DNA from: Chloroflexota bacterium
Lineage (GTDB): Bacteria; Chloroflexota; UBA6077; CF-72
Direction of reading: 5' to 3'
DNA length: 33,334 bases
Assembly: GCA_019239775.1 (NCBI GenBank)
Contig: JAFAZN010000266.1
Span: 1-33,334, forward strand
Shown here: positions 1,068 through 33,334 of the stretch, piece after piece
How positions within the stretch are numbered: the stretch's first letter is position 1
Layout of the letters: every line of letters begins with the position of its first letter
Program-made: the position numbers and the translations under genes
The notes under the pieces: model-generated
What the model was told of the DNA's origin: nothing
Seen by the model: the letters and a program-made list of their open reading frames with translations, nothing else
The model's database searches: none

Positions 1068-1080
1068 GCACAACGTGCAA
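1052..1080 (-). promoter_or_regulatory. Sigma70-like promoter for the RpiR gene
   Basis: Read on the minus strand, TTGCAC (1080-1075) and AATATT (1057-1052) are separated by 17 bp. The -10 overlaps the operator dyad. The -10 ends 12 bases upstream of GTG 1039, so the transcript would be almost leaderless. Confidence 0.4.
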
Positions 1081-1127
1081 GCCCACTTCCCATACGGGTA
1101 TGGGCGTATCAGGGAGGGCATGGAAGC

Positions 1128-3176: not shown

Positions 3177-3182
3177 CGGTCG

Positions 3183-3199
3183 ATTGGGCGCTAGCCAAT
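3183..3199 (+). promoter_or_regulatory. Small hairpin covering the start codon of the first permease gene
   Basis: ATTGG (3183-3187) pairs with CCAAT (3195-3199) around a 7-nt loop. The right arm includes the A and T of the ATG at 3198. No good Shine-Dalgarno sequence precedes that ATG. A weak start-codon hairpin after the binding-protein gene would fit the usual excess of binding protein over permease. The stem is short, so this is tentative. Confidence 0.25.
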
Positions 3200-8485: not shown

Positions 8486-8489
8486 GGCC

Positions 8490-12873: not shown

Positions 12874-12876
12874 GGG

Positions 12877-13869: not shown

Positions 13870-13878
13870 GGCTTCAGG

Positions 13879-18068: not shown

Positions 18069-18090
18069 GCGAACTTCAGTTCCTCTCGAT

Positions 18091-18106
18091 GAGATGGGCG
18101 GATCTC
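18091..18106 (-). promoter_or_regulatory. Short hairpin in the gap between binding-protein and GH42 genes
   Basis: GAGAT (18091-18095) pairs with ATCTC (18102-18106) around a 6-nt loop, and TCG/CGA just outside can extend the stem past a bulge. It occupies most of the 42-bp gap. Such intergenic stems often protect the 3' end of a binding-protein message and reduce readthrough. The pairing is visible; the role is inference. Confidence 0.25.
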
Positions 18107-18110
18107 GCGA

Positions 18111-20156
18111 TCAGGCGAAGTACCACGTCGCGGGATTCATCGGTGCGGGCGTGGGATAGTCAAACGAGCTCGGCAGCGCCGCGGGGGTGTTCTTCAGCCG
18201 ATCCACACTGATGCCGAAGAAGTTGCCGTCATACGCGGTCCCGATCGTCGGAAACAAATCTGCTTGTATATCGAGAATCTGTCGAAGCAAATCTTGCTGC
18301 TTCTGATCGTCAGCCGTTCCGCGGATCTGGTCATACAGCGCCATCTGCTGCTTCACTTCCGGCGGCGGCTCCTCTGCAAGCGGGCTACTCGGGCTCACGT
18401 ACCACCAGGCCCACGCCTTGGCCCAGAACGAGTTCCCCGTATTCTGCGGGAACCAGTACCGGGGATCGAGAATCACCGCGTCACCTGCACCGCCCCCGAA
18501 AATGTGGCAGCTCGCATGAAAGTCGAACTGTGTCATGCGCACGCGTTGTTCCCACAACGCACGGTCCATCTGCTTGACCGTGATCTCGACACCAACTTTT
18601 GCCCACTGCTTCTTGATCAGCTCGAGACTGTCGATATACGTCGTGCGTCCGCTGTCGATCTCGAACACAATCGAGATACGGTTTCCATCCGGTCCCAGAC
18701 GAAAGCCTTCGCTGTCTTTGTTGGGATACGCCTTGTCCAGGGACTCGTTGGCTTTTTGCGGACTGTACTCCAGGTACTGGGTTGCAAGTCGATCGTGGTA
18801 GTACTTCGAGTCGGGCCGAGGCGCGGTCTGCGCGGCTTTCCCCTGCTGGAGGAACACCACGTCGATCACTTCAGATCGGTCATATGCGTACGACAAGCCG
18901 ATGCGAAAGTCGCGGTTGCGCGCGATCTCGCGAATGACGGGATCCGTGCAATTCATGTTGAACAGGATGTTCATCGAATTGACGGTGGTTGGCGTCAGGT
19001 CGAACAGGTGGAATTTGCCCTTCTGCTGGTTGTCGAAGAACACCGACTTGTTCTTCGGGGCATTGATCCACTGCTCCTGCCAATCCAGCTCGCCGTTCAG
19101 CGCTTTGAGAACGAGCACTTCGGGATCGGTCGCCAGAAACTGGGTGTAGCGATCAATGTAGGGCAGCTGATTGCCGTCTGGATCGACCTTGAAGTAGTAG
19201 GGATTGCGCTCTGCCGAAACGGACGCCGCGCCGGTCCCGAAGCTCTGCTGCAGCTTCCACGGCCAGAGAGTCGGAAGGTCCGGGTTGTTGTAGACCTCGC
19301 GTTTGAAATTGAAGAGATCAGCCCACGTGTTCTGGGAGTTCTCCTGGACCAGCTGGTCGAGGTTCGTCGTGTTGTAGCGCTTGTGAAACTGGGAAAGCGC
19401 CTTTTTGGGATGGGAAGTCGCGCGCTCGATACTTGTGCGCGCAATGTCTTTCAAGAACAGTCCGTTCGGCTCGTCGAAGGTCCACGTAAAGGTGACGTCG
19501 TCAACCTTTGCCACCTTGAATGATGGCTTCGGTGGAGCCGGCGTAATTTCGCTGTTCATCAGCACGTCTTCGTACCAGAAAACGACGTCGTCACTGGTGA
19601 ACGGCGAACCGTCAGACCATTTCAGGCCCTTGCGCAAGGTGAACGTGTACTGCTTACCATCGTCGCTGGCCTTGACCGACTCCGCGACATTGGGAATCAC
19701 CGCGTCGTAGTTCGGTGTGTAGCGCATAAGCTGCTCGTATCCGATGTTGCGAATCAGGTCGTTGCCGTTGCGTTCAATGGTGCCGGTGTGCCACTCGCCA
19801 CCATAGTTGCCGGTGGATTCGAGCGGTTTGACGACGAACGGGTTCGCGGGTAGCCGCTGGTCGACCGGTGGCAACGTGCCGCCCTTGACAAGATCGGCCA
19901 GCATCGGCGCTTCGTTGAACTTCGTCGGTGGGCTCGAAGCAACCGTTGGGCCGGCAACTGCTGGCGCGGCAAGGGTTGGCTTCGCAGCGGGCGTGGGTGG
20001 TGGGTTCGACGCGCCGCTGCTGGTCGGCTCCGCCGGCGCTGAGTTCGGTGCCGAGGGTGCTGGTGGCGCGGCCGGGCCGCACGCGCTCAGGAACGCGGCC
20101 GCGCCGGTCAGCGTCCCGAAACGAAGCATCGTTCGGCGAGAGAAAGTTCGGCCCAT
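18111..20156 (-). CDS. ABC transporter solute-binding lipoprotein, family 5, probable oligosaccharide binder
   Basis: This 681-residue protein starts with a Tat lipoprotein signal: [22 protein letters not shown], whose lipobox is LSAC. A Pro/Ala/Ser/Thr linker follows, then a large SBP_bac_5 domain ([55 protein letters not shown]). ATG 20156 is chosen because GGGGGTGG lies 6-7 bases before it; a GTG four codons upstream is possible but sits on that sequence. Length and domain structure parallel the protein at 1128. Following genes are two glycosidases and a full set of membrane components, so a beta-galactoside or mixed plant or algal oligosaccharide is the likely ligand. A LacI-type operator lies just upstream. 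Confidence 0.92.
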
Positions 20157-20181
20157 CGCCTGCGCCACCCCCAGTCGTGCT

Positions 20182-20199
20182 GCTGGAAACGTTTCCAGC
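20182..20199. promoter_or_regulatory. LacI-family operator, perfect 18-bp palindrome
   Basis: GCTGGAAACGTTTCCAGC is perfectly palindromic with a central CG, the classic shape of LacI/GalR-family sites. It lies one base after the -10 of the binding-protein operon promoter, over the predicted transcription start. A 16-of-18 copy lies upstream of the lacI gene (21276-21293). Confidence 0.85.
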
Positions 20200-20200
20200 C

Positions 20201-20229
20201 AGGATGACAGACTACGCCGAGCGTGTCAA
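20201..20229 (-). promoter_or_regulatory. Promoter of the oligosaccharide import/hydrolysis operon
   Basis: On the minus strand, a perfect TTGACA (20229-20224) and CATCCT (20206-20201, 3 of 6) are 17 bp apart. The -35 lies within the last codons of the lacI gene, which ends at 20212. The -10 is weak, and the operator starts immediately behind it, which fits a tightly repressed promoter. Confidence 0.55.
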
Positions 20230-21246
20230 GAGCGCGGCCGTGCCTGACGATTGGCGCACGACCAGGCGCGGCTGGTAGCTGACGTTACGCGGAGTCCACG
20301 CTTCCTGCTGGGCTGGCCAGGCTATTTTTTCGAACAGCAGCTCCGTTGCCTGGCGAGCCATGTCGCGAACGGCGTGGGCGACAGACGTCAACGGCGGATC
20401 GAGATACTGCGCAATGGCCAGGTTGTTGTGACCGACGACCGCCACGTCTTCCGGGACACGCAGGTCCAGCTCGCGGAGCGCCAGCAGGATGGGTAAGGCG
20501 TTCTCGTCGTTGTACGCCATGACCGCCGTCGGTCGCGGCGTGCGTTCGAATGCTTCACGCACGTGCTGGTGGACCTCCGCCATTGTGTCGCAAAAGAGGA
20601 CCAGGCCTGGATCGAACGGCACGTCGAACTCGTGTAAGGCGTCCCGATACCCGGGAAACCGATCCTGCGACGGCGGATGATCGCGCGACCCGAGCTGGTG
20701 CAGAATGCGGCGGTGGCCGCGCTCGAGCAGATGTCGCGCCGCCAGGTACGTGCCACGCCGGTAGTCGAGCGCGATCGAATCGCACTCAGGCTCGTCGATG
20801 TGTCGATTGAGAAGAACGAAGGGAATGCCCGCTGCTTGAAGCGCCAGCAACGGGCCGGGGCCGTCACGCACGGAGTTCAACAGCAGTCCGTCGACCCGCT
20901 TTTCGACGAACATGTCATGCGCATCGCGCACCGCGGTTGGGCTGGCGCTGGCGTTGCATACGATCACCGCGTAACCCCGTGGTGTTGCCGCGTCGTAGAT
21001 GCCGCTCAGCAACGGCGCGTTGAATGAAAAAGCGCTCGTGTCTGCTACCAGCACGCCAATGGTCCGGGCCGTCGCGCCCTTGAGCGCACGCGCGTGTAGA
21101 TTCGCTGTGTACTTGAGCGCACCCGCCGCCTCGAGCACGCGCTGACGCACCTCGGGGCTCACGTCGTCGCGTCCATTGAGCGCACGGGACGTCGTGCTGA
21201 CCGAGACATTGGCAAGGCGCGCGACGTCTCGTATTGTGGCGACCAC
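20212..21246 (-). CDS. LacI/GalR-family transcriptional repressor
   Basis: The protein has 344 residues. The N-terminal LacI HTH is at residues 4-50 ([22 protein letters not shown]), then the hinge helix ([10 protein letters not shown]). The periplasmic-binding-protein-like sensor domain (about 63-335) follows, with [14 protein letters not shown] at the start and [27 protein letters not shown] near the end. This is the Peripla_BP_3 pattern. The start is GTG 21246, supported by GAGAGG with 7-bp spacing. It sits between the unknown 817-aa gene and the transport/hydrolase operon, with matching palindromes before its own gene and before that operon. It should therefore repress both and be released by a sugar derived from the imported oligosaccharide. 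Confidence 0.94.
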
Positions 21247-21275
21247 AGCTCAGCCTCTCTCGCCAGCACCCTGCT

Positions 21276-21293
21276 GCCGAAAACGTTTCCAGC
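21276..21293. promoter_or_regulatory. Second LacI-family operator, upstream of the lacI gene
   Basis: GCCGAAAACGTTTCCAGC matches the perfect palindrome at 20182 in 16 of 18 positions; the two differences are in the left half. It directly abuts the lacI -10, so autoregulation with lower affinity than at the operon promoter is expected. Confidence 0.75.
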
Positions 21294-21322
21294 AAGCTAG
21301 CACGTTGGACGCGCTCCATCAA
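21294..21322 (-). promoter_or_regulatory. Promoter of the lacI gene
   Basis: On the minus strand, TTGATG (21322-21317, 4 of 6) and TAGCTT (21299-21294, 3 of 6) are 17 bp apart. The -35 overlaps the stop codon region of the upstream 817-aa gene. The architecture, with the palindrome directly after a weak -10, repeats that of the promoter at 20201-20229. Confidence 0.4.
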
Positions 21323-23748
21323 CCATCGGAGAAGTCCAGCCGAAGGTACTCGCCGCGGTGGCGAATATCGATGGCTTCGCTCGGCAGCTCGGCCGACGCA
21401 TATGGAGTGTCGAAATGCTTCGTCGTGTGGCTCGGGCGCGGCGTGCCGTCCACCAACAGCGGGCCGCCCCACTCGAAGGCAAAAGCGTGACCTCGGATGC
21501 CCCAGTACGTGAGCCTGCCCGTGGAGCGTTCGATGCGCGTGGCGCGCACGGCTGCCTGGAAGTCAGCAAAGCTCCCGTCCAGCGCGGCGCGGCCCATCTG
21601 CACGATCCAGGTTTGCTCGGAACCGAAGGCGCGCAGCTCGCGCAGCGCGTTGCGTCCCTCACGGATGAGCATCATGCCAGCGGTGTTGGTCAGCGCAATA
21701 AAGGCCTCGCCAACGCATCCGAATATCCATTGCTCCTCGCGGAGGAATTCATCGAAGGTCGCCAACGGAAAATATGCGTGTGTGAAGCCGAGGACGTCCT
21801 GGTTGGAGAGGCGGTGCATGGCGAAGACCACGTCCTGCCACTGGAGAACGTGTGGCAGGCGGAGGTTGCCAGTCCAGTAGCCGGGCATGCGGGCGTCGTT
21901 TTCGCTTGACGAGGCAGGTTGATTCACGAAGACCATCGCCTCGGGACCGAGTGTAGCGCGCCACATGAGCTCGCTCCGGCCGGGGCGCCCCGGCGTGACT
22001 CCACGCAGCGACGACAGGATGTAGTCCGGCGTCCGGTACGCCACAATCTCCGTCGGCTCATCGTCCGGTGGCGCGTGGCGTTCCTCGCTCCAGGTTGCCG
22101 TGACATCATCGTGTGCAATGGACTCCAGGACTGGCGGTGGCTCGTAAACCGCATTGCACGCAAGACAGAGTGGCGCGAGCGCGTGGTCGTTATCGATCCC
22201 GCTCCCCCACAACAGTCGGCTCACGCCCGCGGTGGGTTGAAGATAGCCGCTCTTGACGAAACTGGCTGGGCAGTGGCGGCTGGCGGCACCGAAAGCGCCA
22301 TGTCGCGAGTGCAGCGCGAGCATGAACAGGACCTTGTCCGCGGAGACGGCGGCAAGCTCGTAGACTTGCCCTTCCGCTGCGAGCTCGGCGAGATCGCTGA
22401 ATGCCGCGATCGCGTCATGTAGGTCCAGCATGGATCCCGGCCGAGCGGAGCCAAACTGTCCGAAGGTGTGCATCCACCGCAGCAGCTGCGCTTCCGCTTC
22501 GGCGCGATGCGAGGCTCCGGTGCGACCATCAGCCCACGAGCGCTCCGGCCATTGCTGCCCAGCCAGCAATTCGGCCGCTGCCGAGACCAGCGTGTTGTCC
22601 CACTCGGAGAACGTCAGGACCGCATGCTCAAGTGCGAGACGGACCTCAGTCGGAAACGGTGCGGCGGTGCCATAGCGGGACAACATGCCAATGTGTGCCA
22701 GGAGGAGATGGCTGGTCGGGTCTTGGAGCGAGTCGATCAACCTCGTGCTATCAACATCGCTCCAGGCCGCGAGGGCCATCCGCGCAATCTGGGCAAGTGT
22801 CGATTCGCTCATCTGAGCGATTGCCAGCAGCGCTTCGCGCCGTCGCTCCGTGAGGTCACCTCGTGCATTTGCGACGTATCGCCGCGAACCCATCGAGTAG
22901 AACGGAAGTCGGTGAGCAATGCGCAGGTGTTGGACGTACACCTCGTCCGGGCTGGGCATCAGCGTCACGTGCATCGGTCCGGTCGGGAACTGCAGCGCGT
23001 AGCCGAGCTCCACGCTGTCGCCTGGTTGACCAGCTTTGTCGGAAATTGCGTAGATCGATTCGTCGGGTCCATGGAGGCGGATGTGCGCTGGGCAGAACGC
23101 CCGCTCACCGTCCGGCCAGCGCAGGATGATCGGAGTATCCCCGGCGTAGACGTCGCGATCCAGATACACGCGGGCTGAGAGCGTTTCGAAGGCGTTGCGG
23201 CGACCGAGATCGGCGATCAGCGTTGGCAACTGCACGCGGAGTCCGTGTGGCGGCTCGATTGCAACGGTTGTCGCATGCGGCGTCGCGCCCATTGCGACCT
23301 GCTCGGTCCGGATCATCAAACGGCTCACTCCAGCCGGCAGCTCAAGGTGACAGCGGCTACTGCCCGCCTCGTCCTGGAGGACCGGCGCGTCATTGACCCA
23401 GACGCCGAATCGTGCGTCGGAGGTGATCGTTAGTGTGACCAACCGTGTCGCATCGCTCGCGATCTCCGCGTAGGCCCACGCGCGCACCAACGCTTTCTTC
23501 GCATAGGTGGCTGAATGATCGATGGCGTGATCCTCGGGGCAGGCGAGGTACGTCCAGGCGCCAGTGTGGTTGCCTGCCAGGAACTGACCACAGTCGAGCG
23601 GCCCGCGTTCGACCGGTCGTCCTTCGATGCCGATTCTCTGGTCCCAGGTCGTGGGCGACCCCGGCGCTAGCTCGACAACGGGGCCCGCTGTCAGCCAGTT
23701 GCCGATGAAGCCATCTGCCAGGTCATACGTGAGGTGAGCGCCAGCCAT
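21319..23748 (-). CDS. Large protein of unknown function, possibly heparinase/lyase-like alpha-toroid type
   Basis: I do not recognise a named family. From ATG 23748 it has 809 residues and no signal peptide. The N-terminal 240 residues look like a beta-sandwich (ITSDARFGVWVNDAPVLQDE), as in carbohydrate-binding or jelly-roll domains that open many bacterial glycan enzymes. The middle (about 300-520) is mainly helical with repeated Ala/Leu helices. The last 250 residues are beta-rich (GYWTGNLRLPHVLQWQDVVF, WIFGCVGEAFIALTNTAGMM), which resembles the C-terminal sandwich of heparinase II/III-like proteins. ATG 23772 is the other possible start; I prefer 23748 because AGGTGG lies just before it and the protein then starts at the domain. 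Its position upstream of lacI suggests a role with the glycosidases. Function not determined. Confidence 0.7.
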   Translation of the reverse strand: MAGAHLTYDLADGFIGNWLTAGPVVELAPGSPTTWDQRIGIEGRPVERGPLDCGQFLAGNHTGAWTYLACPEDHAIDHSATYAKKALVRAWAYAEIASDATRLVTLTITSDARFGVWVNDAPVLQDEAGSSRCHLELPAGVSRLMIRTEQVAMGATPHATTVAIEPPHGLRVQLPTLIADLGRRNAFETLSARVYLDRDVYAGDTPIILRWPDGERAFCPAHIRLHGPDESIYAISDKAGQPGDSVELGYALQFPTGPMHVTLMPSPDEVYVQHLRIAHRLPFYSMGSRRYVANARGDLTERRREALLAIAQMSESTLAQIARMALAAWSDVDSTRLIDSLQDPTSHLLLAHIGMLSRYGTAAPFPTEVRLALEHAVLTFSEWDNTLVSAAAELLAGQQWPERSWADGRTGASHRAEAEAQLLRWMHTFGQFGSARPGSMLDLHDAIAAFSDLAELAAEGQVYELAAVSADKVLFMLALHSRHGAFGAASRHCPASFVKSGYLQPTAGVSRLLWGSGIDNDHALAPLCLACNAVYEPPPVLESIAHDDVTATWSEERHAPPDDEPTEIVAYRTPDYILSSLRGVTPGRPGRSELMWRATLGPEAMVFVNQPASSSENDARMPGYWTGNLRLPHVLQWQDVVFAMHRLSNQDVLGFTHAYFPLATFDEFLREEQWIFGCVGEAFIALTNTAGMMLIREGRNALRELRAFGSEQTWIVQMGRAALDGSFADFQAAVRATRIERSTGRLTYWGIRGHAFAFEWGGPLLVDGTPRPSHTTKHFDTPYASAELPSEAIDIRHRGEYLRLDFSDG

Positions 23749-23806
23749 CGAGCCACCTATTTTGGCAGGCATTCGCGATTGCTATGGTGGTATAAGCAAA
23801 CGCAAT

Positions 23807-23853: not shown

Positions 23854-23880
23854 GTGCCATCACGTGTGATTCAGGCATGA
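23854..23880 (+). CDS. Possible 8-codon leader peptide coupled to the MBL-hydrolase gene
   Basis: GTG at 23854 follows GGGAG (23843-23847) by six bases and opens an eight-codon frame (VPSRVIQA). Its TGA overlaps the ATG of the hydrolase gene as ATGA. The hydrolase ATG has no Shine-Dalgarno sequence of its own, so translation could be delivered through this leader. The near-palindrome ATCAC-GT-GTGAT (23859-23870) lies inside it. This is tentative; the same pattern of SD, short frame and coupled gene is seen at 31966. Confidence 0.3.
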   Translation: MPSRVIQA

Positions 23881-24815
23881 GCACGTCGCATGCCGAGCAC
23901 GTCGAGGTGGGACCGCCTCGCGTTGAGGAGGTCTCTTCGGGCATCTATGCCTATCTCCAGCCCGATGGCAGCTGGTTTCTCAACAACACTGGTTTTCTCG
24001 TGGGGCGCAGGGGCATCGTTTCGATCGACACCACGTCCACCGAACGACGTACGCGCGCTTACCTGGAGGCGATGGGCAAGATCAGCAGGCAGCCGATCCG
24101 CACGCTCATCAACACGCATCACCATGGAGATCACACCCACGGCAACTGCCTGCTGCCGCTAGCGACGATCATCGGCCACCCGCGCTGCCGCGAGGAAATT
24201 CTCAACACGCCGTTTCCACCACCACCTGGCATATGGTCTGCTGTCGATTGGGGCGATCTCCACGTTGAGCCACCTTTCGTCACGTTTGAGGATCGGCTCA
24301 GCGTGTGGGTTGATGCTTTGCGAGTGGAGCTGCACGTCGTCCCGACGCCGGCGCACACGACCAACGACGTGGTGGTATGGATTCCAGATCGCTCAGTCCT
24401 GTTCACGGGCGACCTGCTGTTTGTCGGTGGCACGCCTTTCGTGCCGATGGGTTCCGTCAGTGGCTCGCTTCGTGCGCTGGAGTGGCTGCGCGGCTTCGGC
24501 GCAACAGTGTTGGTCCCAGGTCACGGACCTGTCAGTGGACCCAACGCGATCGACGACGTCGAAGCGTACTTGCGTTTCGTCCAGGACAGCGCACAGAGTG
24601 GCAAAGCGGCTGGACTGACTCCGCTGGAGCTTGCACGTCAGACGGACCTTGGGCGATTTACGGACTGGGCTGACAGGGAACGCATTGTCGGCAATTTGCA
24701 TCGTGCCTATGCGGAGCTGGATGGCGCCGAACCTGGCGCGTCCATCGACACACGCGCCGCGCTGATGGATATGGTCGCGTACAATGACGGTCGGCCACTA
24801 ACATGCCTGGCTTGA
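23877..24815 (+). CDS. MBL-fold metallo-hydrolase
   Basis: This 312-residue protein has the complete metallo-beta-lactamase-fold site: H81-x-H83-x-D85-H86 (INTHHHGDHTHGN), H160 (PTPAHTTND), D179 (LFTGDLLF) and H216 (VPGHGPVSG). It has no signal peptide, so it is cytoplasmic. The layout, with a long GIYAYLQPDGSWFLNNTGFLVG start, resembles MBL proteins from catabolic clusters (cyclase- or lactonase-like hydrolases), not class B lactamases. It heads a plus-strand operon and overlaps the next gene by 13 bp. The fold and a dinuclear metal site are clear; the substrate is unknown, but hydrolysis of an ester, lactone or thioester in the pathway of the neighbouring enzymes is plausible. Confidence 0.9.
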   Translation: MSTSHAEHVEVGPPRVEEVSSGIYAYLQPDGSWFLNNTGFLVGRRGIVSIDTTSTERRTRAYLEAMGKISRQPIRTLINTHHHGDHTHGNCLLPLATIIGHPRCREEILNTPFPPPPGIWSAVDWGDLHVEPPFVTFEDRLSVWVDALRVELHVVPTPAHTTNDVVVWIPDRSVLFTGDLLFVGGTPFVPMGSVSGSLRALEWLRGFGATVLVPGHGPVSGPNAIDDVEAYLRFVQDSAQSGKAAGLTPLELARQTDLGRFTDWADRERIVGNLHRAYAELDGAEPGASIDTRAALMDMVAYNDGRPLTCLA

Positions 24816-26419
24816 CGGCCTGGAGTAGACGCGAGGCGCTCAAGCTGCTGAGCTCCGCGGCTGGCCTGGTCGTACTGGATGCCTGCCAGGCACCCGCGGT
24901 ACCCGCCGCGTCCACGGCAGCTTCCGGTGCGCTGACCGCATCAACAACAACGACGACACCAGCGGCAACAGATCAGCCTCGCTCCGGCGGCATCCTGCGT
25001 CAGGGCAACCTCGGCGACCTGCCCACTCTGGACGGCAATTTCCTCAACGGCCAGAGCACGATTTACCCGGTCTGGAATCGATTGGTCGAGCTAGACGCGC
25101 AGCTCGACCCTGTTGGCATCCTGGCTGAGAGCTGGGACGTCGATGACAAGTACACGCGTATCGCGCTGCATCTCCACAAAGGTGTTCAGTGGCACACGGG
25201 CCGCGAGTTGTCTGCCGACGACGTCGTGTGGAATATCAAACGCGTCAGTAGCGATCCGAAAGTCGCGGGCGGCGGGTTTTTCAACTGGATGTCCCAAACC
25301 CTCACCGGCATCGAGACCACGGATAAGTACACCGTGGTGCTGCACGCAGAGCGCTCCTGGCCGGCAGTGTTCGATACGCTGTCGCTGCTCAGCATTATCG
25401 ATCCGGCGACGTTCGAGGCTTCAGGTCCAAGCAAGCCAACCGGTACTGGCCCATTCATCTTCAGTGAGTATGTGCAGGGCGACCATTTCACGTTGAAGAA
25501 GAATCCCAGCTATTGGCAATCGGGCAAGCCATACCTGGACGGGATCGAGATCAAGATCTTCTCGGACCCGCAGTCGATGGTGACGCAACTCGAGGCTGGC
25601 GCAATCGACCTGGTTCTTGCGCCACCAATTCGAGACGTGGCGCGCCTTTCGAACAACCCCAACTTTGGCGTGACGTTTCACCAGTACAGTGGCGGCGCAA
25701 ACCTCATCTTCGTGCAGGCCAAAGACGGTGCGGGGCCGACGACGAACAAATTGTTCCGCCAGGCGCTCAGCGCGTCGATCGATCGCAAACGCTGGACGGA
25801 CGCAGTGCTGCTCGGATACGGCGCGCCAAAGACGCTGCCGCTGGCTCCGCCAAATCCGGGCTACGATGCCACTCGCGATCAGGCTATTTCGTTCGATCTC
25901 GACAAGGCGAAGTCGCTACTCCAGCAATCCGGTTTAGGTACGCCACCGCTGGAGGTGATCTGGAACGCGACCGTCGCGGACTACGCCACCGTCGCGCAGA
26001 TTTACCAGCAGGACCTGGCCAAGATTGGCCTGAACCTCACCCTCAAGCCTACGGAGCCGGTGGCGTACGTGGACCAGACCTACAATTCGAAATTCCCGAG
26101 CCTGGCGTGTGGCGCGACGCTGTACGGCAACATGCGCCCGGGCTTCTTCGCGGGGAACGTGTACTACAGTCCGTATAACAACTGGAGCAGCTTCCGCAGT
26201 GATCAACTCCTCCAGTTGACTGACGGCCTGCTGCACGAAACGGACGCAACGAAGCAGAAGCAAATCTACGCTGATTGGCTCAACTACATCCAGGACGAGA
26301 GTTGGGCCATGCCCTGGTCCAACACGGCACCGCGCTTCGCCTTTGCGTCGAAGGTCCATGGTGTGCGTTGGAACCTCGCTGACTACATGATGACCGATGA
26401 CGCCTGGCTCTCGGCCTGA
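24803..26419 (+). CDS. ABC transporter solute-binding lipoprotein, family 5 (first of a tandem pair)
   Basis: The protein has 538 residues, the standard length for family 5. A Tat lipoprotein signal opens it: SRREALKLLSSAAGLVVLDAC, lipobox LDAC. A Thr/Ala linker and an SBP_bac_5 domain follow, with LHLHKGVQWHTGRELSADDVVW, GTGPFIFSEYVQGDHFTLKKN and FRQALSASIDRKRW. It starts inside the MBL gene (13-bp overlap) and is itself overlapped by the next gene by 23 bp. The following gene is a clear paralogue. No permease or ATPase gene accompanies the pair in this window, so membrane partners must be shared or encoded elsewhere. Ligand unknown; the enzyme neighbours suggest an aromatic or cyclic acid, not a sugar. 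Confidence 0.92.
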   Translation: MPGLTAWSRREALKLLSSAAGLVVLDACQAPAVPAASTAASGALTASTTTTTPAATDQPRSGGILRQGNLGDLPTLDGNFLNGQSTIYPVWNRLVELDAQLDPVGILAESWDVDDKYTRIALHLHKGVQWHTGRELSADDVVWNIKRVSSDPKVAGGGFFNWMSQTLTGIETTDKYTVVLHAERSWPAVFDTLSLLSIIDPATFEASGPSKPTGTGPFIFSEYVQGDHFTLKKNPSYWQSGKPYLDGIEIKIFSDPQSMVTQLEAGAIDLVLAPPIRDVARLSNNPNFGVTFHQYSGGANLIFVQAKDGAGPTTNKLFRQALSASIDRKRWTDAVLLGYGAPKTLPLAPPNPGYDATRDQAISFDLDKAKSLLQQSGLGTPPLEVIWNATVADYATVAQIYQQDLAKIGLNLTLKPTEPVAYVDQTYNSKFPSLACGATLYGNMRPGFFAGNVYYSPYNNWSSFRSDQLLQLTDGLLHETDATKQKQIYADWLNYIQDESWAMPWSNTAPRFAFASKVHGVRWNLADYMMTDDAWLSA

Positions 26420-27971
26420 ACTCACGCGGCGCTCGGTCCTGAAGCTCTGCGTGCTGGCTGGCGGCGCTGCGCTGCTTTCGGCGTGCAGTGGTCTGATGCC
26501 GTCCGCGGCGACCTCTCAGCCGACGGCCGCTCCGAACAATCAACCTCGCAATGGCGGCAGCCTGCGCGTAGGCGTGCTGGGCGACCTGCAGGGCCTGGAT
26601 GGCCACCTGACGACTGGGCTGGACTCACTACGTCGCGTTTGGGACGTCACCAGCCAGCTCGACGACAAGCTCAACACCGTGCCGGTGCTGGCGGAGACGG
26701 TGGACCTCACGCCGGATGCGCTGCAGATGACGGTGAAGGTGCGCGGCGGAGTCCAGTTCCACACCGGGCGGGAAGTGACCAGCGATGATCTGGCCTGGAA
26801 CTTCAATCGGCTGAAAGATCCGAAGGTCAATCCGATCTATGCCAACCTGGTCAAGCCATTCGCGACCATTGAGACTCCAGACAAGAGCACTTTACAGGTC
26901 CAGTTCGACGCGCCAGACCCGTTCGTGGTCGATGCGCTGCCCAATCTCTCGATTCTGGATCCGGTTTCGTTCCAGCAGGACGGCCCCACCAAGCCCGTCG
27001 GTACGGGTCCGTACAAGTTCGTCGAGTTCGTCCAGGGCGACCACCTGACCCTCGAAAAGAACTCCAATTACTGGGCCCCCACGCGACCACATCTGGATCG
27101 CCTGGAGTTTCGGATCTTCACCGATCCACAAGCGATGATGACCGAGGTCGAAGCCGGAACGCTGGACGTCGCGATTCAACCATCGCTCGTGGACTGGGTT
27201 CGCGCCCGTAACGAACGCAAGCTGCAGACGCTGATTAATCAGAATTCTGGAAACTACATAGGCGCCGCCTTCAATACCACACAGGCTCCAACAGACAACA
27301 AACTGGTGAGGCAGGCGCTTCAGTTCGCGCTGAATCGGCAGCAAATCTCTGACACGGTTTTTCAAGCGGTCGAGAAGCCGCTCACACTGCTCTGGTTTCC
27401 GACCTCGCCAGCGTACGACGCGGCCAAGAATGCTACCTATAGCTTCGACCCAGAGAAGGCCCGCGCGCTGCTTGCGCAATCGGGTGCCGCCAACGTGGCG
27501 GTCGATTTCAATTATCCATCGGTCTCGCCGGAGTTTGCGCGCGTTGGCGAAATCTGGCAGGCGGACCTCGACAAGGTCGGCGTGAAGATGACGCTGAAAC
27601 CGACCGAGCCTGTTGCCCTCACGGCAAGCATGCAGCGCCAACAGTACAATGGCGTTGCCATTGGCACCGGCTTTTACGGACAACTCCATGGCGGAGTCGT
27701 GTGGACGTCGCCGTATTATGGTCCCATCAACAACTACGCTGGATACAAAGACGACAAGTACACTCAGCTTACGCTCGCGGTGTACTCAGAGGCAGACGCG
27801 GCCAAACGCAGACCAATCTACGACGCCTGGAATGACTACGTCCTGGACCAGACGCCCGTCACTGCCATCTCGACGCAACTCCCCCGGGCGGTGGCGCAAC
27901 CCAATGTGCGCGATGCGGTGTTCAGCATCGGCGGCAATTACCTGGACCTGTCCGTCGCATGGCTCGCATGA
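26397..27971 (+). CDS. ABC transporter solute-binding lipoprotein, family 5 (second of a tandem pair)
   Basis: The protein has 524 residues. The Tat lipoprotein signal is LTRRSVLKLCVLAGGAALLSAC, lipobox LSAC. The SBP_bac_5 domain includes VKVRGGVQFHTGREVTSDDLAW, GTGPYKFVEFVQGDHLTLEKN and VRQALQFALNRQQI. Alignment by eye with the preceding protein is easy along the whole domain (for example PSKPTGTGPF versus PTKPVGTGPY and LEAGAIDLV versus VEAGTLDVA), so the pair arose by tandem duplication, but they are well diverged. ATG 26397 lies within the upstream gene. The stop at 27969 overlaps the amidohydrolase ATG as ATGA. The two might bind different intermediates or different substrate forms. Confidence 0.92.
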   Translation: MTPGSRPELTRRSVLKLCVLAGGAALLSACSGLMPSAATSQPTAAPNNQPRNGGSLRVGVLGDLQGLDGHLTTGLDSLRRVWDVTSQLDDKLNTVPVLAETVDLTPDALQMTVKVRGGVQFHTGREVTSDDLAWNFNRLKDPKVNPIYANLVKPFATIETPDKSTLQVQFDAPDPFVVDALPNLSILDPVSFQQDGPTKPVGTGPYKFVEFVQGDHLTLEKNSNYWAPTRPHLDRLEFRIFTDPQAMMTEVEAGTLDVAIQPSLVDWVRARNERKLQTLINQNSGNYIGAAFNTTQAPTDNKLVRQALQFALNRQQISDTVFQAVEKPLTLLWFPTSPAYDAAKNATYSFDPEKARALLAQSGAANVAVDFNYPSVSPEFARVGEIWQADLDKVGVKMTLKPTEPVALTASMQRQQYNGVAIGTGFYGQLHGGVVWTSPYYGPINNYAGYKDDKYTQLTLAVYSEADAAKRRPIYDAWNDYVLDQTPVTAISTQLPRAVAQPNVRDAVFSIGGNYLDLSVAWLA

Positions 27972-28975
27972 TTGTCGACGCATTTACGCATGTTATTCCA
28001 CAGCGATGCCTGGACCGCTTCAATGCCGTTGCGGCGCGTCCGTCAGTGGACTTCCTCCGCGGACTGCAGGGCCGGCCGTACCTCGCGCCGATGTGGAACA
28101 TGGACGCGCGCTTTCGGGCCATGGACGCCGTGGACGGCTACGCTCAGATCCTGACGTTGTGCGTGCCGCCAATCGAGCAAATGGCCAGTGGAGCGGTCGC
28201 CGTGGACCTTGCTCGGTTCGCCAACGATTGCATGGCGGAAATGGTCGCACAGCACCCGGACCGCTTTGTCGGTTTCGCGGCATCGCTCCCAATGGAAGAC
28301 CCGGACGCCAGCCTCGCAGAGGTGGATCGTGCGGTCCAGCAACTGGGCGCGCGCGGAGCGCAGGTCTTCACCAACGTCAACGGGCGGCCTCTAGATGAAC
28401 CGCGTTATGAAGGCCTTTGGGCGCGGTTGCAGCAAATGAATCGGAGCCTCTGGGTGCACGGCGCGCGCCGGTACGTGACACCGGACTACGACGGTGAAAC
28501 GTGGTCGCGTTTCGGCCTCTGGGCGGCTTTGGGATGGCCGTATGAAATGGCCCTGTTTGCCGCGCGCATGGTAGCCTCCGGTGTCCTCGACCGCTATCCG
28601 CGCCTGCCCATGTATCTGCACCACAGCGCTGGAATGGTTGCCACCTTCAGCCGACGCGTAAACGGCTCCTGGCTGGAGCTGCAGGCTGAGGCACCGGCTG
28701 ACCAGGAGGCATACCAGCGCTTGCAGCGCCCGCCTGCGACCTATTTCAAAGACTTCTTCGCCGACACCTCTGGCCAGACTCCAGAAGCAATTCGGGCCGC
28801 GCTGGAGTTCTTCGGCGCGGACCACGTCCTGCTCGGCAGCGACAGTCCATTCATCTCGCCCGCGGACCATCTCAGGACCGTCCAGAACCTTCAGCTATCG
28901 CCCGCCGATTTCGAGCAGGTGGTGAGCGGAAATGCTCGGCGCATTCTTCATCTCGACCAGGTGGCGGCTGGCTGA
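27968..28975 (+). CDS. Amidohydrolase-family (ACMSD-like, PF04909-type) protein with FxH in place of HxH
   Basis: From ATG 27968, which overlaps the upstream stop as ATGA, the protein has 335 residues; an ATG three codons earlier is also possible. It is an amidohydrolase_2 TIM barrel, the group of 2-amino-3-carboxymuconate-semialdehyde decarboxylase, resorcylate decarboxylases and LigJ/LigI-type hydrolases. Metal-site landmarks are THV at the first strand (the usual HxH reads F-T-H in DAFTHVIP), H in LWVHGARR, H-H in MYLHHSAGM and D in LLGSDSPFI. Loss of the first His of HxH distinguishes it from the next gene and suggests a single-metal or altered mechanism. It probably decarboxylates or hydrates a ring-cleavage acid; this is inference from family and context. 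Confidence 0.88.
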   Translation: MIVDAFTHVIPQRCLDRFNAVAARPSVDFLRGLQGRPYLAPMWNMDARFRAMDAVDGYAQILTLCVPPIEQMASGAVAVDLARFANDCMAEMVAQHPDRFVGFAASLPMEDPDASLAEVDRAVQQLGARGAQVFTNVNGRPLDEPRYEGLWARLQQMNRSLWVHGARRYVTPDYDGETWSRFGLWAALGWPYEMALFAARMVASGVLDRYPRLPMYLHHSAGMVATFSRRVNGSWLELQAEAPADQEAYQRLQRPPATYFKDFFADTSGQTPEAIRAALEFFGADHVLLGSDSPFISPADHLRTVQNLQLSPADFEQVVSGNARRILHLDQVAAG

Positions 28976-28978
28976 TCA

Positions 28979-29938
28979 ATGCGCGTCGATGTTCATGCGC
29001 ACTATTACCCCGCTGCTCTGTACGACCTGCTGGAGCGACTGACAGGGAAGCCTCGTCCGCGCATGACAGGGTCCGTTCCCGGGTTTGCGCACCACATCGG
29101 CATCGAAGGCCAACTGGAGCTGATGGACCAGGCTGGTATCGGACGGATGGTGATGTCGCTTGGCAATACCCCACCGTATTATCCCGAGAGGCAGACGGCC
29201 ATCGCGGCAGCGCGCGGGTCCAACGACCTGTATGTGGACCTCCACAGCCGCTACCCGCTCCGCTTCAATGTGTTCGCGGGTGTACCGCTGCCACACGTCG
29301 ATGCCGCCCTGGAAGAGCTGGATCGGGCGCTGGCGCTCCCGGGCGTGGTCGGCGTTGGGCTCGGTTGCTCGGTGCTCGGCCAACCGCTTGACGACCCGAG
29401 TTTCGATGCGTTTTTCGCGGAACTGAATCGCCGCGCGAGCGCGACCTTCGTGCATCCGGTTGGCGCCGGTGGTGGGCTAAACAGTCAGGACTTTAGTCTG
29501 ACCTGGATGATCGCCTCGCGCTTCGAAGATACGATTGCCATGGCGCGCCTGATCCTGTCCGGACTGACCCTGCGCTACCCCAACATCCGATTCATCATCC
29601 CGCACCTCGGCGGCACCCTCGCCCTGTTTCTGCAGCGCATGGACAATGTCGCGGAGCGCGATGGGTGGCGCGAGAAGCATAGTGCAGAGCTGATGCCCAG
29701 TGACCTGGCCCGTCGCTTCTGGTTTGACACGGTCAACGAACAGGAATCCGCGCTGCGGTGCGCGTGCGAGACATTCGGGTCCGAACGCATCATGCTGGGA
29801 ACGGACTGGCCGATGCTTCCGCCGGAGAAGCTGAAGCGCTTCGTCGATTATGTTTCAGAAGCGCTTCCGGATGATGAGGCGCACCGAATCCTCGACGTGA
29901 ACGCTGTCCAGTTGCTGGGCCTGCACCCCGCCGACTGA
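28979..29938 (+). CDS. Amidohydrolase-family (ACMSD-like) protein, probable decarboxylase/hydrolase
   Basis: This 319-residue amidohydrolase_2 barrel keeps the full metal-site set: HAH in VDVHAHYYP at the first strand, H in TFVHPVG, H in FIIPHLGG and D in LGTDWPM. This is the ACMSD pattern more exactly than in the preceding gene. It follows that gene with a three-base gap, so it is the last gene of the plus-strand operon. Two consecutive ACMSD-type enzymes in one operon suggest two consecutive steps on related acids, or one active and one specialised copy. Its stop at 29938 directly abuts the stop of the convergent alpha/beta hydrolase, with no room for a terminator between them. Confidence 0.92.
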   Translation: MRVDVHAHYYPAALYDLLERLTGKPRPRMTGSVPGFAHHIGIEGQLELMDQAGIGRMVMSLGNTPPYYPERQTAIAAARGSNDLYVDLHSRYPLRFNVFAGVPLPHVDAALEELDRALALPGVVGVGLGCSVLGQPLDDPSFDAFFAELNRRASATFVHPVGAGGGLNSQDFSLTWMIASRFEDTIAMARLILSGLTLRYPNIRFIIPHLGGTLALFLQRMDNVAERDGWREKHSAELMPSDLARRFWFDTVNEQESALRCACETFGSERIMLGTDWPMLPPEKLKRFVDYVSEALPDDEAHRILDVNAVQLLGLHPAD

Positions 29939-30721
29939 TTACGAGCCTGGCTCCGCGACGACGAATCGATCACCGCGTTCGATGAAGTCGGTCACCAGCG
30001 CGACAAATTGGCGGCATGCCGCCACTGGGAGTGAATGCGCAGCACCGTAGATGAGCATTCGGTAGCTGTTCGGGATGGCACGAACAAAGACTTGCCCCGA
30101 CTCGGGTGGAATAACCTCATCCGCGGTGCCCCACAGGACCAGCGTGGGTGCGCTGATCTCGCCGAGACGTTCCCGTAGGTTGGCGTTGCCGTGCGCCGGG
30201 CGGAGCTTTGCGGCATTAGCGCTGGCATTTCGCTGACGGGTAGCCCGATCGGTGTCGGTGGGCGGCTCACTCCAGGCCGGCTTGGAGCCAAACAGGCGCA
30301 GCTCCATACCTTCCGGAGAAGCTGGCGGCGGCGCATGCGAGGCTCCAGCGAAGGCAGCGGGTGCCACCAGAATTAGCGATTGCACCAGCGACGGTTCCAG
30401 AATTGCCAGCCAGCAGCCGGCCGCGCCACCAGCAGACTCCGCGATCAGACTCACCGGCGCGCCGACCACTATGCGAATGAACTCCGCCATCACCTCGGCT
30501 TCCTCGCGCGCAGATGCGCACGCTCCCGTGGAGCCATCAAAGCCAGGTCGTGATGGCGCTAGCACACGAAAGCGCTCGCCGAGAGCGGGCATGAACGCCG
30601 CATTGCGGAAGACGCCGCCTGCGCCGTGGAAGTACACCACCGGAGCGCCGTCGCCCACTTCGAGGTATTCGATGCGTGCGCAGCCGGGCAGGTCGACGGT
30701 GCGCGGCTCCAGGCGGCTCAC
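29939..30721 (-). CDS. Alpha/beta hydrolase
   Basis: This 260-residue protein has the alpha/beta-hydrolase catalytic triad: Ser96 in LIAESAGG (Gly of the classical G-x-S-x-G replaced by Ala), Asp201 in LVLWGTADEVIP and His229 in YGAAHSLPV. The oxyanion HG is in VVYFHGAGG at about 29-36. It has no signal peptide. The size and C-C-bond-hydrolase-like look (MhpC/BphD group) would fit cleavage of a meta-cleavage product, but an esterase is equally possible. It begins at GTG 30721, which overlaps the stop of the flavin monooxygenase gene as GTGA, so the two are translationally coupled. Confidence 0.9.
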   Translation of the reverse strand: MSRLEPRTVDLPGCARIEYLEVGDGAPVVYFHGAGGVFRNAAFMPALGERFRVLAPSRPGFDGSTGACASAREEAEVMAEFIRIVVGAPVSLIAESAGGAAGCWLAILEPSLVQSLILVAPAAFAGASHAPPPASPEGMELRLFGSKPAWSEPPTDTDRATRQRNASANAAKLRPAHGNANLRERLGEISAPTLVLWGTADEVIPPESGQVFVRAIPNSYRMLIYGAAHSLPVAACRQFVALVTDFIERGDRFVVAEPGS

Positions 30722-31833
30722 AGCTCGTGCATCGCGGGCAATACGTCCCGCGCGAAGCGACGCATGGTGGCCTGAGTTGTTTCGTCGTCGTCGCCGATCT
30801 CGAAGTTGAGGCTGATGACCCCGGCTCCCAATTCCTTACGGATGTGCGTAAGTTGCTTCAAGACCGTGGCGGCTCCGCCACATAAAACGGTACCGAGCTC
30901 GACTTGCTGTTCCAGTGACAGTGGTCCGCCGCTGCCCATCGTCTGAAAGCGGCGCAAGAGCTCCGGATTGCGCGGTCCGAAGAATCCGGACTCCGCGACC
31001 AACCGATTGGCCTTGAGCATCCCAGGCGCGAGATGAGTGGCCTCAACCCTGGGTCGCGCGATCGCAAACGCTTCCTCGTCTGTATCAGCCAGGTACACCG
31101 GTAAGTGGCCGTAGATCACCTGATCAGCACTGGGTGTCCAGCCGTGTTCGGTGGCCTGGAGAAAATAATGCTGCGCGGCCGGTTTGGCGGCGGCGAGGTT
31201 GGTAAATGCAAGGCCCAGACCAATTCGCTTGCGGGCCGCAAACTCGGCTGATTCCTTGCGTGAGCCGGAGATGAAGATCGGTGGTAGTGGTTGCTGGATG
31301 GGACGCGGCCAGATTGAAACATTCCGGAAGTGGTAGTGATCACCCTCCCAGCCGAAGGGTTCGGTGTCACTCCAAGCGCGCACGACCAATTCCCAGGCCT
31401 CCTCGAAGCGTGCTCGCGATTCGGCCGGTGGCACGTTGTACACGAGGTATTCGTAGGGCGCACCTCGCAGCAGACCAGCAACCAGCCGACCGCCTGAGAG
31501 AGTGTCGACGAGCGCGTATTCCTCCGCGACGCGCACCGGATTATTCAACGGGAGCAGCGCGCCCATGATGCACACGCGCGCGCGTTTGGTGCGCTGCGTA
31601 ATCGCCGCCGCAACCGCGCTGACATTCGAGGCAAGACTTCCAGGTGAGTAGTGGTGCTCGGCACAACCAACCCAATCGAAGCCCAGCTCGTCGGCCAGGG
31701 CAACATGCTCCATTCGACTGGCTGCTACGCGCACCGCCCGATCGGGGTCGAATAACCGGTTCGGCACCGGCCAGCGGCTGACCGGCTCACTCACACGACC
31801 GTAGGGAAGGCTCGCAAAATATGACGCCTTCAT
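30718..31833 (-). CDS. LLM class flavin-dependent oxidoreductase (bacterial-luciferase-like monooxygenase)
   Basis: This 371-residue TIM-barrel protein has the luciferase-like monooxygenase pattern: MEHVALADELGFDWVGCAEHHYSPG, then MGALLPLNNPVRVAEEYALVDTLSGGRL, and IFISGSRKESAEFAA in the flavin-binding part. LLM enzymes use reduced FMN (or F420 in some branches) to oxygenate or oxidise small molecules such as alkanesulfonates, nitrilotriacetate, terpenoid ketones and aromatic compounds. No dedicated flavin reductase is visible in the window. It is the first gene of a two-gene minus-strand unit with the alpha/beta hydrolase. It diverges from the hydroxylase operon at 31966 with a dyad-containing gap of 132 bp between the starts. 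Confidence 0.92.
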   Translation of the reverse strand: MKASYFASLPYGRVSEPVSRWPVPNRLFDPDRAVRVAASRMEHVALADELGFDWVGCAEHHYSPGSLASNVSAVAAAITQRTKRARVCIMGALLPLNNPVRVAEEYALVDTLSGGRLVAGLLRGAPYEYLVYNVPPAESRARFEEAWELVVRAWSDTEPFGWEGDHYHFRNVSIWPRPIQQPLPPIFISGSRKESAEFAARKRIGLGLAFTNLAAAKPAAQHYFLQATEHGWTPSADQVIYGHLPVYLADTDEEAFAIARPRVEATHLAPGMLKANRLVAESGFFGPRNPELLRRFQTMGSGGPLSLEQQVELGTVLCGGAATVLKQLTHIRKELGAGVISLNFEIGDDDETTQATMRRFARDVLPAMHEL

Positions 31834-31888
31834 TGCCGCGAGGGTACGTCAGGCGCGCCTCGAAGTGGAATTCGTTTTGGTTATACCC

Positions 31889-31907
31889 CCATTGCAACCG
31901 GCAATGG
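31889..31907. promoter_or_regulatory. Inverted repeat in the divergent flavin-monooxygenase/hydroxylase region, possible operator
   Basis: CCATTGC (31889-31895) and GCAATGG (31901-31907) pair perfectly with a 5-bp spacer. An overlapping second dyad is CAACC-N6-GGTTG (31895-31910). The pair lies centrally between the divergent starts at 31833 and 31966, where a regulator could control both units. No regulator gene is visible nearby in this window. Confidence 0.45.
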
Positions 31908-31916
31908 TTGGAGGTC

Positions 31917-31945
31917 TCGACGCCACCCGCTGCCTGACCTAGCCT
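31917..31945 (+). promoter_or_regulatory. Promoter of the hydroxylase operon, architecture shared with 23807
   Basis: TCGACG (31917-31922) and TAGCCT (31940-31945) are 17 bp apart, exactly as at 23807-23835. A predicted start near 31952 falls within the AGGGAGG Shine-Dalgarno sequence (31950-31956), so the untranslated leader would be about 14 nt. Confidence 0.5.
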
Positions 31946-31965
31946 ACCCAGGGAGGTCCAGATCC

Positions 31966-32046
31966 ATGACTGCAGTATCCCAAGTTGTTATCGCTGGCGC
32001 GGGTATCGCTGGCCTGTCCGCCGGCATCGGCCACCACTTCGCGTGA
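31966..32046 (+). pseudogene. 26-codon remnant of an FAD-dependent monooxygenase gene
   Basis: ATG 31966 follows a strong Shine-Dalgarno sequence (AGGGAGG, 31950-31956) by nine bases. The frame encodes MTAVSQVVIAGAGIAGLSAG, then ends after IGHHFA at TGA 32044. The first 20 residues are the textbook N-terminus of FAD monooxygenases of the salicylate/p-hydroxybenzoate hydroxylase type: short strand, then the dinucleotide-binding G-x-G-x-x-G (GAGIAG). The remaining ~350 residues of such a protein are missing. The next gene starts at GTG 32048, one base after the TGA, so the original gene order and coupling seem kept while the middle of the gene was lost. It might now serve only as a translated leader for the downstream hydroxylase. 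An assembly collapse is the alternative. Confidence 0.7.
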
Positions 32047-32047
32047 C

Positions 32048-33199
32048 GTGACGCTTGCTGATCTGATTTCGCGTGCCGAGGCGCTCGTGCCGCGCCTGCG
32101 CGAACGCGCCTCGCACGCTGAAGCCCTGCGTCACCTGCCGGACGAGACGGTGCAGGACTTCCTCGACGCGGGGCTGTTTCGGGTGCTCCAACCCAGGCGG
32201 TGGGGCGGGCTCGAGCTGGATTACGGTCGAACCCAGACGGAGTTGTGCAACGTGCTCGGACGCGGCTGTGGATCCAGCGCCTGGGTGCAGTGTGTAATTG
32301 CCTGCCATGCGTGGTGTCTTGCGATGTTCCCACCCGAAGCTCAAGACGCGGTGTGGGGACGCGAGCGCGACACGCTGATCGCTTCGGCGTTCGCGTTCAC
32401 GACGGGACGGGGTCGGCCGGTCGACGGGGGCTACGCCATTGAAGGCAACTGGCAGTTCTCGAGCGGCAGCAACGCCTGTCAGTGGATCATCCTCGGCACG
32501 CCCATCTTCGATGGTGACGGGCCGCCGGTGAAGAACTTGTGGTGTCTGGTGGAGCGCCCGAATTGGGAGGTGGTGGACACGTGGTACGCGGCCGGTCTGA
32601 AAGGCTCCGCGAGCAATGACATCCACGTTTCGGGCGCCTTTGTTCCGGAGGCATTCACCTTGAACACGATAGAGTGCGATGGGCGGCCGACGCCTGGTAG
32701 CGCGCTAAACCCAAGCTACAACTACCGCCTGCCGCTCTGGAGTGTGTTTCCGTACAACGTGTCGACGCCAGCGCTCGGCATCGCGCGTGGAGCCATTGAG
32801 GCGTATGTTGCGTATATGGCTGCACGTCCGGAGCGCGCGAACATGGCGCAGCGGCACTTGCGGATTTCCGAATCGGCAGCGGAGGTGGACGCCGCCCAGG
32901 CGCTCTGGCTGTCAAATGCGTCGGCGCTGGAGCGGCTGGGACCGACCGGAGGTCCATGGTCGCCAGCATTCCAGGCGAAATTGCGGCGCGACCTGGCGTA
33001 CTCGACGATGCTATGCACTCGCGCGGTGGATCGTCTTGCGACCGCGCTCGGTGCGCACGGAATGCTGGAAGATACGCCGGTCCAGCGCGCTTTTCGCGAC
33101 GTGCACGCCGTCGCGAACCATGGCGCCAACAACTGGGACCTGCAAGCGGTCCCGTACGCCCGCGAAGTGCTACGCCTGCCGCCGCTCCAGGGACGGTAG
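32048..33199 (+). CDS. Acyl-CoA-dehydrogenase-fold flavin-dependent monooxygenase, HsaA/HpaH-like oxygenase
   Basis: From GTG 32048 the protein has 383 residues, the usual size. It follows the pattern of two-component flavin hydroxylases with the acyl-CoA dehydrogenase fold (HsaA of steroid-ring degradation, the Acinetobacter-type C2 of 4-hydroxyphenylacetate hydroxylase). Visible landmarks are LPDETVQDFLDAGLFRVLQPRRWGG at the N-terminus, VDGGYAIEGNWQFSSGSNACQW in the middle beta domain, then YAAGLKGSASNDIHVSGAFVPE. The helical C-terminal domain (about 225-375) completes it. Such enzymes hydroxylate phenols with reduced flavin from a separate reductase. The start is taken at GTG 32048 because the longer frame from 31985 runs across the upstream remnant; reinitiation after its TGA is likely. 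Confidence 0.88.
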   Translation: MTLADLISRAEALVPRLRERASHAEALRHLPDETVQDFLDAGLFRVLQPRRWGGLELDYGRTQTELCNVLGRGCGSSAWVQCVIACHAWCLAMFPPEAQDAVWGRERDTLIASAFAFTTGRGRPVDGGYAIEGNWQFSSGSNACQWIILGTPIFDGDGPPVKNLWCLVERPNWEVVDTWYAAGLKGSASNDIHVSGAFVPEAFTLNTIECDGRPTPGSALNPSYNYRLPLWSVFPYNVSTPALGIARGAIEAYVAYMAARPERANMAQRHLRISESAAEVDAAQALWLSNASALERLGPTGGPWSPAFQAKLRRDLAYSTMLCTRAVDRLATALGAHGMLEDTPVQRAFRDVHAVANHGANNWDLQAVPYAREVLRLPPLQGR

Positions 33200-33334
33200 C
33201 CGCCGGGCGCCTCGATCAGACTGGTGGCAACCTATGGCTCCGGATCCAGAGATCCGAATGGACTGCTGCAACGCGAGCTGATTGGGGTCGCACGTGTAGG
33301 TGGCGCGGATGCGGTTAAAGCGGCGATGATGCCG
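33200..33334 (+). other. Gene-edge stretch, possibly the start of another plus-strand gene
   Basis: After the TAG at 33197-33199, the same frame is open to the window edge. A GTG at 33224 would begin VATYGSGSRDPNG followed by LLQRELIGVARVGGADAVKA, which has helical amphipathic character. No Shine-Dalgarno sequence precedes it. A 6-bp hairpin, CGGATC-N4-GATCCG, lies at 33241-33256 without a T-tract. I do not recognise the product, and the stretch could equally be intergenic. Confidence 0.3.

Follow-up and report, generated by a model that had tools for sequence, protein, structure and literature searches.

We suggest that the eight genes at positions 23877 to 33199 of the window, by which we mean the whole 33,334-nucleotide stretch of DNA from a soil-type Chloroflexota bacterium analysed here, together make up a composite, incomplete set for the catabolism of an aromatic (phenolic) compound, a reading that sequence comparison makes fairly probable. 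The MBL, SBP1, AH1, AH2 and HsaA-like genes would form a module A that works with enzymes encoded on a second contig of the same genome (C322), and the locus probably represents half of a meta-cleavage gene set that is split over separate contigs, since the orthologs of a single island in a genome of the same genus (G002) are divided between the window's contig (C374) and C322. SBP2, LLM and ABH look like a second ancestral module, module B, interleaved with module A in the window.

Layout of the locus

The window is an entire contig (G000:C374) of a 7.2 Mb source genome in 507 contigs, and our view therefore stops 135 bp past the HsaA-like gene, with nothing visible beyond position 33334. An ORF check of the window found all eight ORFs, and a Pfam profile search gave a family match above the gathering score for each of the eight genes. 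The features are as follows.

MBL, 23877..24815, plus strand: MBL-fold metallo-hydrolase, first gene of the operon (PF00753, 1.8e-22)
SBP1, 24803..26419, plus strand: family-5 extracellular solute-binding protein, SBP_bac_5 (PF00496, 8.2e-73)
SBP2, 26397..27971, plus strand: family-5 solute-binding protein, SBP_bac_5 (PF00496, 1.6e-73)
AH1, 27959..28975, plus strand: Amidohydro_2 protein, decarboxylase type (PF04909, 1.3e-34)
AH2, 28979..29938, plus strand: Amidohydro_2 protein with ACMSD-type residues (PF04909, 1.5e-34)
ABH, 29939..30721, minus strand: alpha/beta hydrolase (PF00561, 9.7e-19)
LLM, 30718..31833, minus strand: luciferase-like flavin monooxygenase (PF00296, 6.5e-46)
Relic of an FAD monooxygenase gene, 31957..32029, plus strand: 93% identity over 73 bp to G000:C493:627-699
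HsaA-like, 31985..33199, plus strand: acyl-CoA-dehydrogenase fold, oxygenase component of a two-component flavin hydroxylase (NCBIfam HsaA, 2.4e-90, below cut-off)

The plus-strand operon runs in the order MBL-SBP1-SBP2-AH1-AH2, with junctions of -13 bp (MBL/SBP1), -23 bp (SBP1/SBP2), -13 bp (SBP2/AH1) and +3 bp (AH1/AH2). On the minus strand LLM and ABH overlap (-4 bp), and ABH and AH2 abut with their 3' ends facing each other; the HsaA-like gene forms a plus-strand unit of its own. The overlapping and abutting gene ends support three transcription units, and with the ORFs and Pfam matches they confirm what an earlier note on this DNA had read from the letters, namely eight genes of these families in three units.

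The Pfam search of the eight genes detected no ABC permease or ATPase; the locus supplies binding proteins only, and its operon does not encode the own permeases and ATPases that would complete an importer. The two OppBCDF sets of the window are parts of other operons. At 1056-9692 an SBP-OppBCDF operon, with a divergent RpiR-type regulator in front, is followed by enolase-superfamily (MR_MLE) and histone-deacetylase-family genes; at 9705-23772 the second OppBCDF set is accompanied by an SBP gene, a LacI regulator and genes for GHL6 and GH42-type glycosidases, and no Pfam family matches the 817-aa product of a further gene in this region (21319-23772). By eye, the SBP1 N-terminus has an RR and a lipobox-like stretch. 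SBP1 and SBP2 are only 38.8% identical, which rules out a recent tandem duplication. That they serve uptake at low concentration is something we can only infer.

The conserved core, its second contig and a second module

Judged from gene order in relatives, the grouping of MBL, SBP1, AH1 and AH2 goes beyond chance, its linkage having been kept. Their orthologs lie together in the G002 island (SBP1 79%, AH1 68%, AH2 78%, MBL 82%), which also holds genes for a two-domain VOC protein, an HsaA, an FAH-family hydrolase, OppC, OppB, an SBP and a LysR regulator. G002 is apparently the MAG Chloroflexota bacterium CP_BM_ER_18, 2 kb of its contig C521 being identical to JAFAOS010000016.1. In a genome of another family of the same order (G022), about 11 kb hold an AH2-like gene (43%), FAH_a (64%), an SBP, a LysR gene, VOC (62%), MBL (75%), HsaA (50%), an SBP, a second amidohydrolase and FAH_b (60%). 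The synteny in these two genomes rules out an island unique to the source genome. Upstream of the G002 island (L018, G002:C456, 2098-9161) we note, by eye, a Rieske oxygenase, an NMT1-type binding protein and xanthine-dehydrogenase-like genes.

Across 400 Chloroflexota genomes the HsaA group was found in three (E <= 1e-75), MBL in ten (E <= 1e-90) and VOC in five (E <= 1e-60), and all three HsaA-group genomes also carry MBL and VOC. The computed probability of this co-occurrence, 1e-5, overstates independence because two of the three HsaA genomes come from one genus, and we regard the physical linkage in G022 as the stronger evidence. Seven other Chloroflexota have MBL homologs (49-56%) without the cluster, two of them near LLM or FAH genes. 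The earlier proposal of a catabolic set that combines oxidation with hydrolysis and has binding proteins of its own is thus upheld, in that MBL, amidohydrolase and HsaA genes are found together, and in linkage, in other genomes of the order.

For every G002 island gene the best counterpart is found on one of two contigs, C374 or C322; on the latter, VOC1 (87%), HsaA (82%), FAH_a (80%), OppC (81%), OppB (72%), LysR (72%) and an SBP (67%) correspond to island genes. C322 also carries VOC2, FAH_b, two more FAH genes, a hydantoinase B gene and a different type of MBL (29% identical to the window MBL), and its OppB and OppC come without an ATPase. Its tetranucleotide and GC values match those of the window; the source genome is a MAG with 5% contamination, and the possibility of strain mixing bears against pairing C374 with C322. 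We infer that the genes of the two contigs are used jointly.

The earlier note had taken the lack of an extradiol dioxygenase as its central argument. This is true of C374, but not of the genome, where the VOC1 ortholog lies on C322 beside HsaA, FAH, permease and LysR genes; the absence is a limit of the window. PF00903 matches VOC1 in two stretches, giving a two-domain VOC fold, and its His, His and Glu iron ligands align with those of homoprotocatechuate and catechol 2,3-dioxygenases (1f1x, 3hpv), so that it has both the domains and the ligand set of a type I (VOC) extradiol dioxygenase.

Since C374 itself has no extradiol gene, one might read the cluster as self-contained, much as the earlier note did, with LLM and the HsaA-like enzyme oxygenating a cyclic ketone or a heterocycle, which ABH and MBL would then open as an ester or lactone, and the amidohydrolases hydrolysing or decarboxylating the product without any extradiol step. 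Such a scheme is favoured by the recurrence of LLM-ABH pairs, which in Alphaproteobacteria (L049, L050) neighbour AH1-like genes and in the source genome neighbour Rieske or LigB-like genes. We nevertheless think it unlikely, because MBL, SBP1, AH1 and AH2 have their orthologs beside VOC and FAH genes in G002, because MBL and the AH2-like gene are similarly placed in G022, and because the G002 counterparts of SBP2, LLM and ABH are elsewhere and partly decayed.

It is this last observation that leads us to see SBP2-LLM-ABH as a second module within the composite, split set that we prefer. The SBP2 counterpart (60%) is on G002 contig C346, and immediately after it comes an LLM-ABH remnant (L172, 11920-12659) in which LLM residues 13-100 (84%) are joined to ABH residues 93-258 (70%) in different frames. 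The remnant corresponds to LLM-ABH in window order with an internal deletion, unless it is an assembly error, and its flanks hold two further LLM genes and a gene of the AH2-like kind. Membership of LLM and ABH in the conserved core is ruled out by these displaced and decayed counterparts. The neighbourhood that the earlier note proposed to look for across Chloroflexota is accordingly conserved in part: MBL, SBP1, AH1 and AH2 are linked with HsaA in G002, and the core is present in G022, but LLM, ABH and SBP2 do not travel with it.

LLM-ABH pairs recur at G000:C407, G002:C399 and G019:C78, and an LLM relative (75%) stands at G002:C259 without ABH. On G000:C191 Rieske and LigB-like genes lie between LLM and ABH; there (L153, 4109-8446) LLM, a LigB-like extradiol dioxygenase recognised by eye, a Rieske oxygenase and ABH adjoin, likely as another aromatic catabolic cluster. 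ABH has a candidate Ser-Asp-His triad and a weak match to HsaD (1.1e-10). The SAR202 literature describes LLM paralog expansions in the phylum and no such cluster.

A first look gave 82 LLM candidates in 7.2 Mb, so that a 9.3 kb span would hold one in about 10% of cases, and the presence of an LLM gene alone is therefore weak evidence in so LLM-rich a genome. This frequency, the different positions of LLM and ABH in G002, and relics that show active reshuffling would all be expected if unrelated LLM, amidohydrolase, SBP, VOC and acyl-CoA-dehydrogenase-fold paralogs had been juxtaposed by chance in a paralog-rich genome. We consider such an origin quite improbable in view of the operon overlaps, the MBL-AH2-HsaA linkage kept between families, and the co-occurrence of HsaA with MBL across the 400 genomes.

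Active-site features of the predicted enzymes

The HsaA-like protein scores 303 bits against NCBIfam NF045629 (relatives 274-312), short of the cut-off of 450, and hence is not an HsaA equivalog by that model. It has the full-length fold and matches 3-HSA hydroxylase (3afe, 2rfq) and pHPA hydroxylase C2 (2jbr) at E 5e-48 or better, keeping the SSG and FRDxH regions that correspond to the active-site Ser and His regions of 2jbr, which we take to be the flavin-site Ser and C-terminal His regions. The neighbourhoods of the HsaA genes contain no flavin reductase; the genome's three PF01613 genes are all on other contigs, and so the dedicated nearby reductase of the HsaA or pHPA-hydroxylase C2 type is missing. 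The window protein is 60% identical to the HsaA of C322, 59% to that of G002 and 50% to that of G022.

Its start is uncertain (TTG 31985 or, more probably, GTG 32048) because the DNA in front is a relic of another gene. This relic retains the 5' end of a group-A type FAD monooxygenase gene, namely the start codon with the first 21 codons and the 9 bp upstream; the C493 gene that it matches belongs to Pfam FAD_binding_3. The relic start codon opens a 26-codon ORF (31966-32046) that ends 1 bp before the GTG in the HsaA frame, HsaA N-terminal similarity begins within a few codons after the relic, and the rest of the gene is intact. The 26-codon ORF and HsaA may be translationally coupled. It is also possible that the window HsaA, as a paralog of about 60% identity with a disturbed 5' end, has a different substrate or is weakly expressed.

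MBL has a complete dinuclear site (HHHGDH at 81, AHT at 159, TGD at 177, GHGP at 215); in the G002 ortholog, R replaces the last H of HHHGDH. The best PDB matches of its AlphaFold model (pLDDT 86), 8d2z and chlorothalonil dehalogenase 6uxu, are generic fold matches only. Alignment rows for fold prediction were taken from genome loci only, two plasmid-derived rows having been left out. Assignment to the quinoprotein-relay MBL families or to the B1/B2 beta-lactamases was not adopted, all scores being far under the cut-offs.

The nearest solved structures of both amidohydrolases are decarboxylases, and we suggest decarboxylation as their putative role. AH1 is nearest in sequence to 2,6-dihydroxybenzoate (gamma-resorcylate) decarboxylase, and its predicted fold is also similar (pLDDT 85.5). 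In AH1, Phe replaces the first ligand of the HxH metal motif and the other site residues are kept; the protein so departs from the gamma-resorcylate decarboxylase signature of both N-terminal ExH/HxH ligands plus His and Asp. The substitution is typical of its family, with Phe or Tyr in that position in 33 of 35 aligned homologs. AH1-family homologs occur in Rhizobiales, Rokubacteria, Actinomadura and others. Scanning the genome collection with AH1 recovered AH1-FAH-VOC and AH1-ABH-LLM neighbourhoods, with neither MBL nor HsaA in them. AH2 matches ACMSD at 2.3e-26, and its HAH, VHP, PHLGG, LQRMD and LGTD stretches align with 2hbv. The HxH, His, His and Asp that serve metal binding and catalysis in ACMSD are all kept, as is Arg239, which binds the substrate; these residue roles are those known for ACMSD, in part from the title of PDB 4ifk.

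Known systems and a proposed pathway

No characterised pathway matches the set exactly, as the earlier note had said of textbook pathways. The 4-hydroxyphenylacetate (homoprotocatechuate) pathway resembles it in combining an HsaA-fold hydroxylase (pHPA hydroxylase C2), a VOC extradiol dioxygenase and FAH-fold enzymes. Among NCBIfam models, VOC1 matches its HpaD best (122 of 321 bits), and FAH_a and FAH_b match its HpaG best (80 and 88 of 276 bits), every score falling far short of the curated cut-off. The hpa pathway, however, is not known to include amidohydrolases, MBL, SBPs or LLM. HsaA-HsaD steroid-ring catabolism, in which VOC cleavage is followed by an alpha/beta hydrolase, supplies the best family match of the hydroxylase, but that match is under cut-off, the ABH-HsaD likeness is weak, and other steroid-pathway genes are absent from the loci read. 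ACMSD and the gamma-resorcylate and 5-carboxyvanillate decarboxylases belong to the same Amidohydro_2 family as AH1 and AH2, at about 20-30% identity, with AH2 keeping the ACMSD residues and AH1 lying near 2,6-dihydroxybenzoate decarboxylase apart from its Phe.

A more specific form of our reading would have the set degrade the A-ring of flavonoids or isoflavones, with a plant polyphenol as substrate. In the fde (naringenin) and ifc (isoflavone) systems a flavin hydroxylase and then a glyoxalase-fold dioxygenase act on the phenolic ring (PMC11069340), and on a Croceibacterium plasmid a quercetin-dioxygenase-family gene neighbours FAH and a VOC homolog. The comparison with fde/ifc is by description only, and it sets a group-A FAD hydroxylase against the HsaA type found here; the ifc cupins are absent from the loci read, and we hold the flavonoid version to be distinctly unlikely.

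Outside the phylum, a plasmid of Paraburkholderia D15 has the order AH-HsaA-VOC-flavin reductase-MFS-FAH-AH-aldehyde dehydrogenase, and one of Novosphingobium EMRT-2 has VOC-FAD monooxygenase-FAH-MBL-FAH-AH-MFS. These clusters differ from ours in identity (28-36%) and in using MFS or TonB transport instead of ABC binding proteins. The dicamba/DsmD system may offer a further parallel, of a VOC enzyme with FAH enzymes. The Paraburkholderia and Novosphingobium sets indicate that the chemistry is not unique and that this kind of gene set is widespread, with hydroxylase and transporter exchanged. Literature searches gave no useful published match to the whole gene set, and the novelty is one of arrangement of known enzyme types, not of a new kind of chemistry.

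For the composite set, we envisage that C322 contributes two VOC extradiol dioxygenases, another HsaA, four FAH-family hydrolases, OppB/OppC, an SBP and LysR. After SBP-dependent uptake, an HsaA-type oxygenase would ortho-hydroxylate the phenol with reduced flavin from a reductase encoded elsewhere, a VOC dioxygenase would carry out meta-cleavage, FAH and/or MBL enzymes would hydrolyse the ring-cleavage product, and AH1 and AH2 would decarboxylate the carboxylated substrate or cleavage product. Module B would add a further round of flavin-dependent oxygenation and hydrolysis, probably acting on a related substrate. Both the order of steps and the substrate class are presumptive. More speculatively, and with some doubt on our part, the set may be a so far undescribed aerobic Chloroflexota meta-cleavage route in which family-5 SBPs import a carboxylated phenolic, AH1 (without the usual first metal ligand) and AH2 decarboxylate the substrate or ring-fission product, and MBL performs a hydrolytic step classically given to other enzymes.

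A single contig may display half of a gene set and mislead on what is missing. Uncultivated Chloroflexota carry many oxygenase and hydrolase paralogs without an assigned substrate, and a recurrent hydroxylase, extradiol dioxygenase, FAH, MBL and amidohydrolase set on two contigs of one genome provides a concrete, testable pathway.
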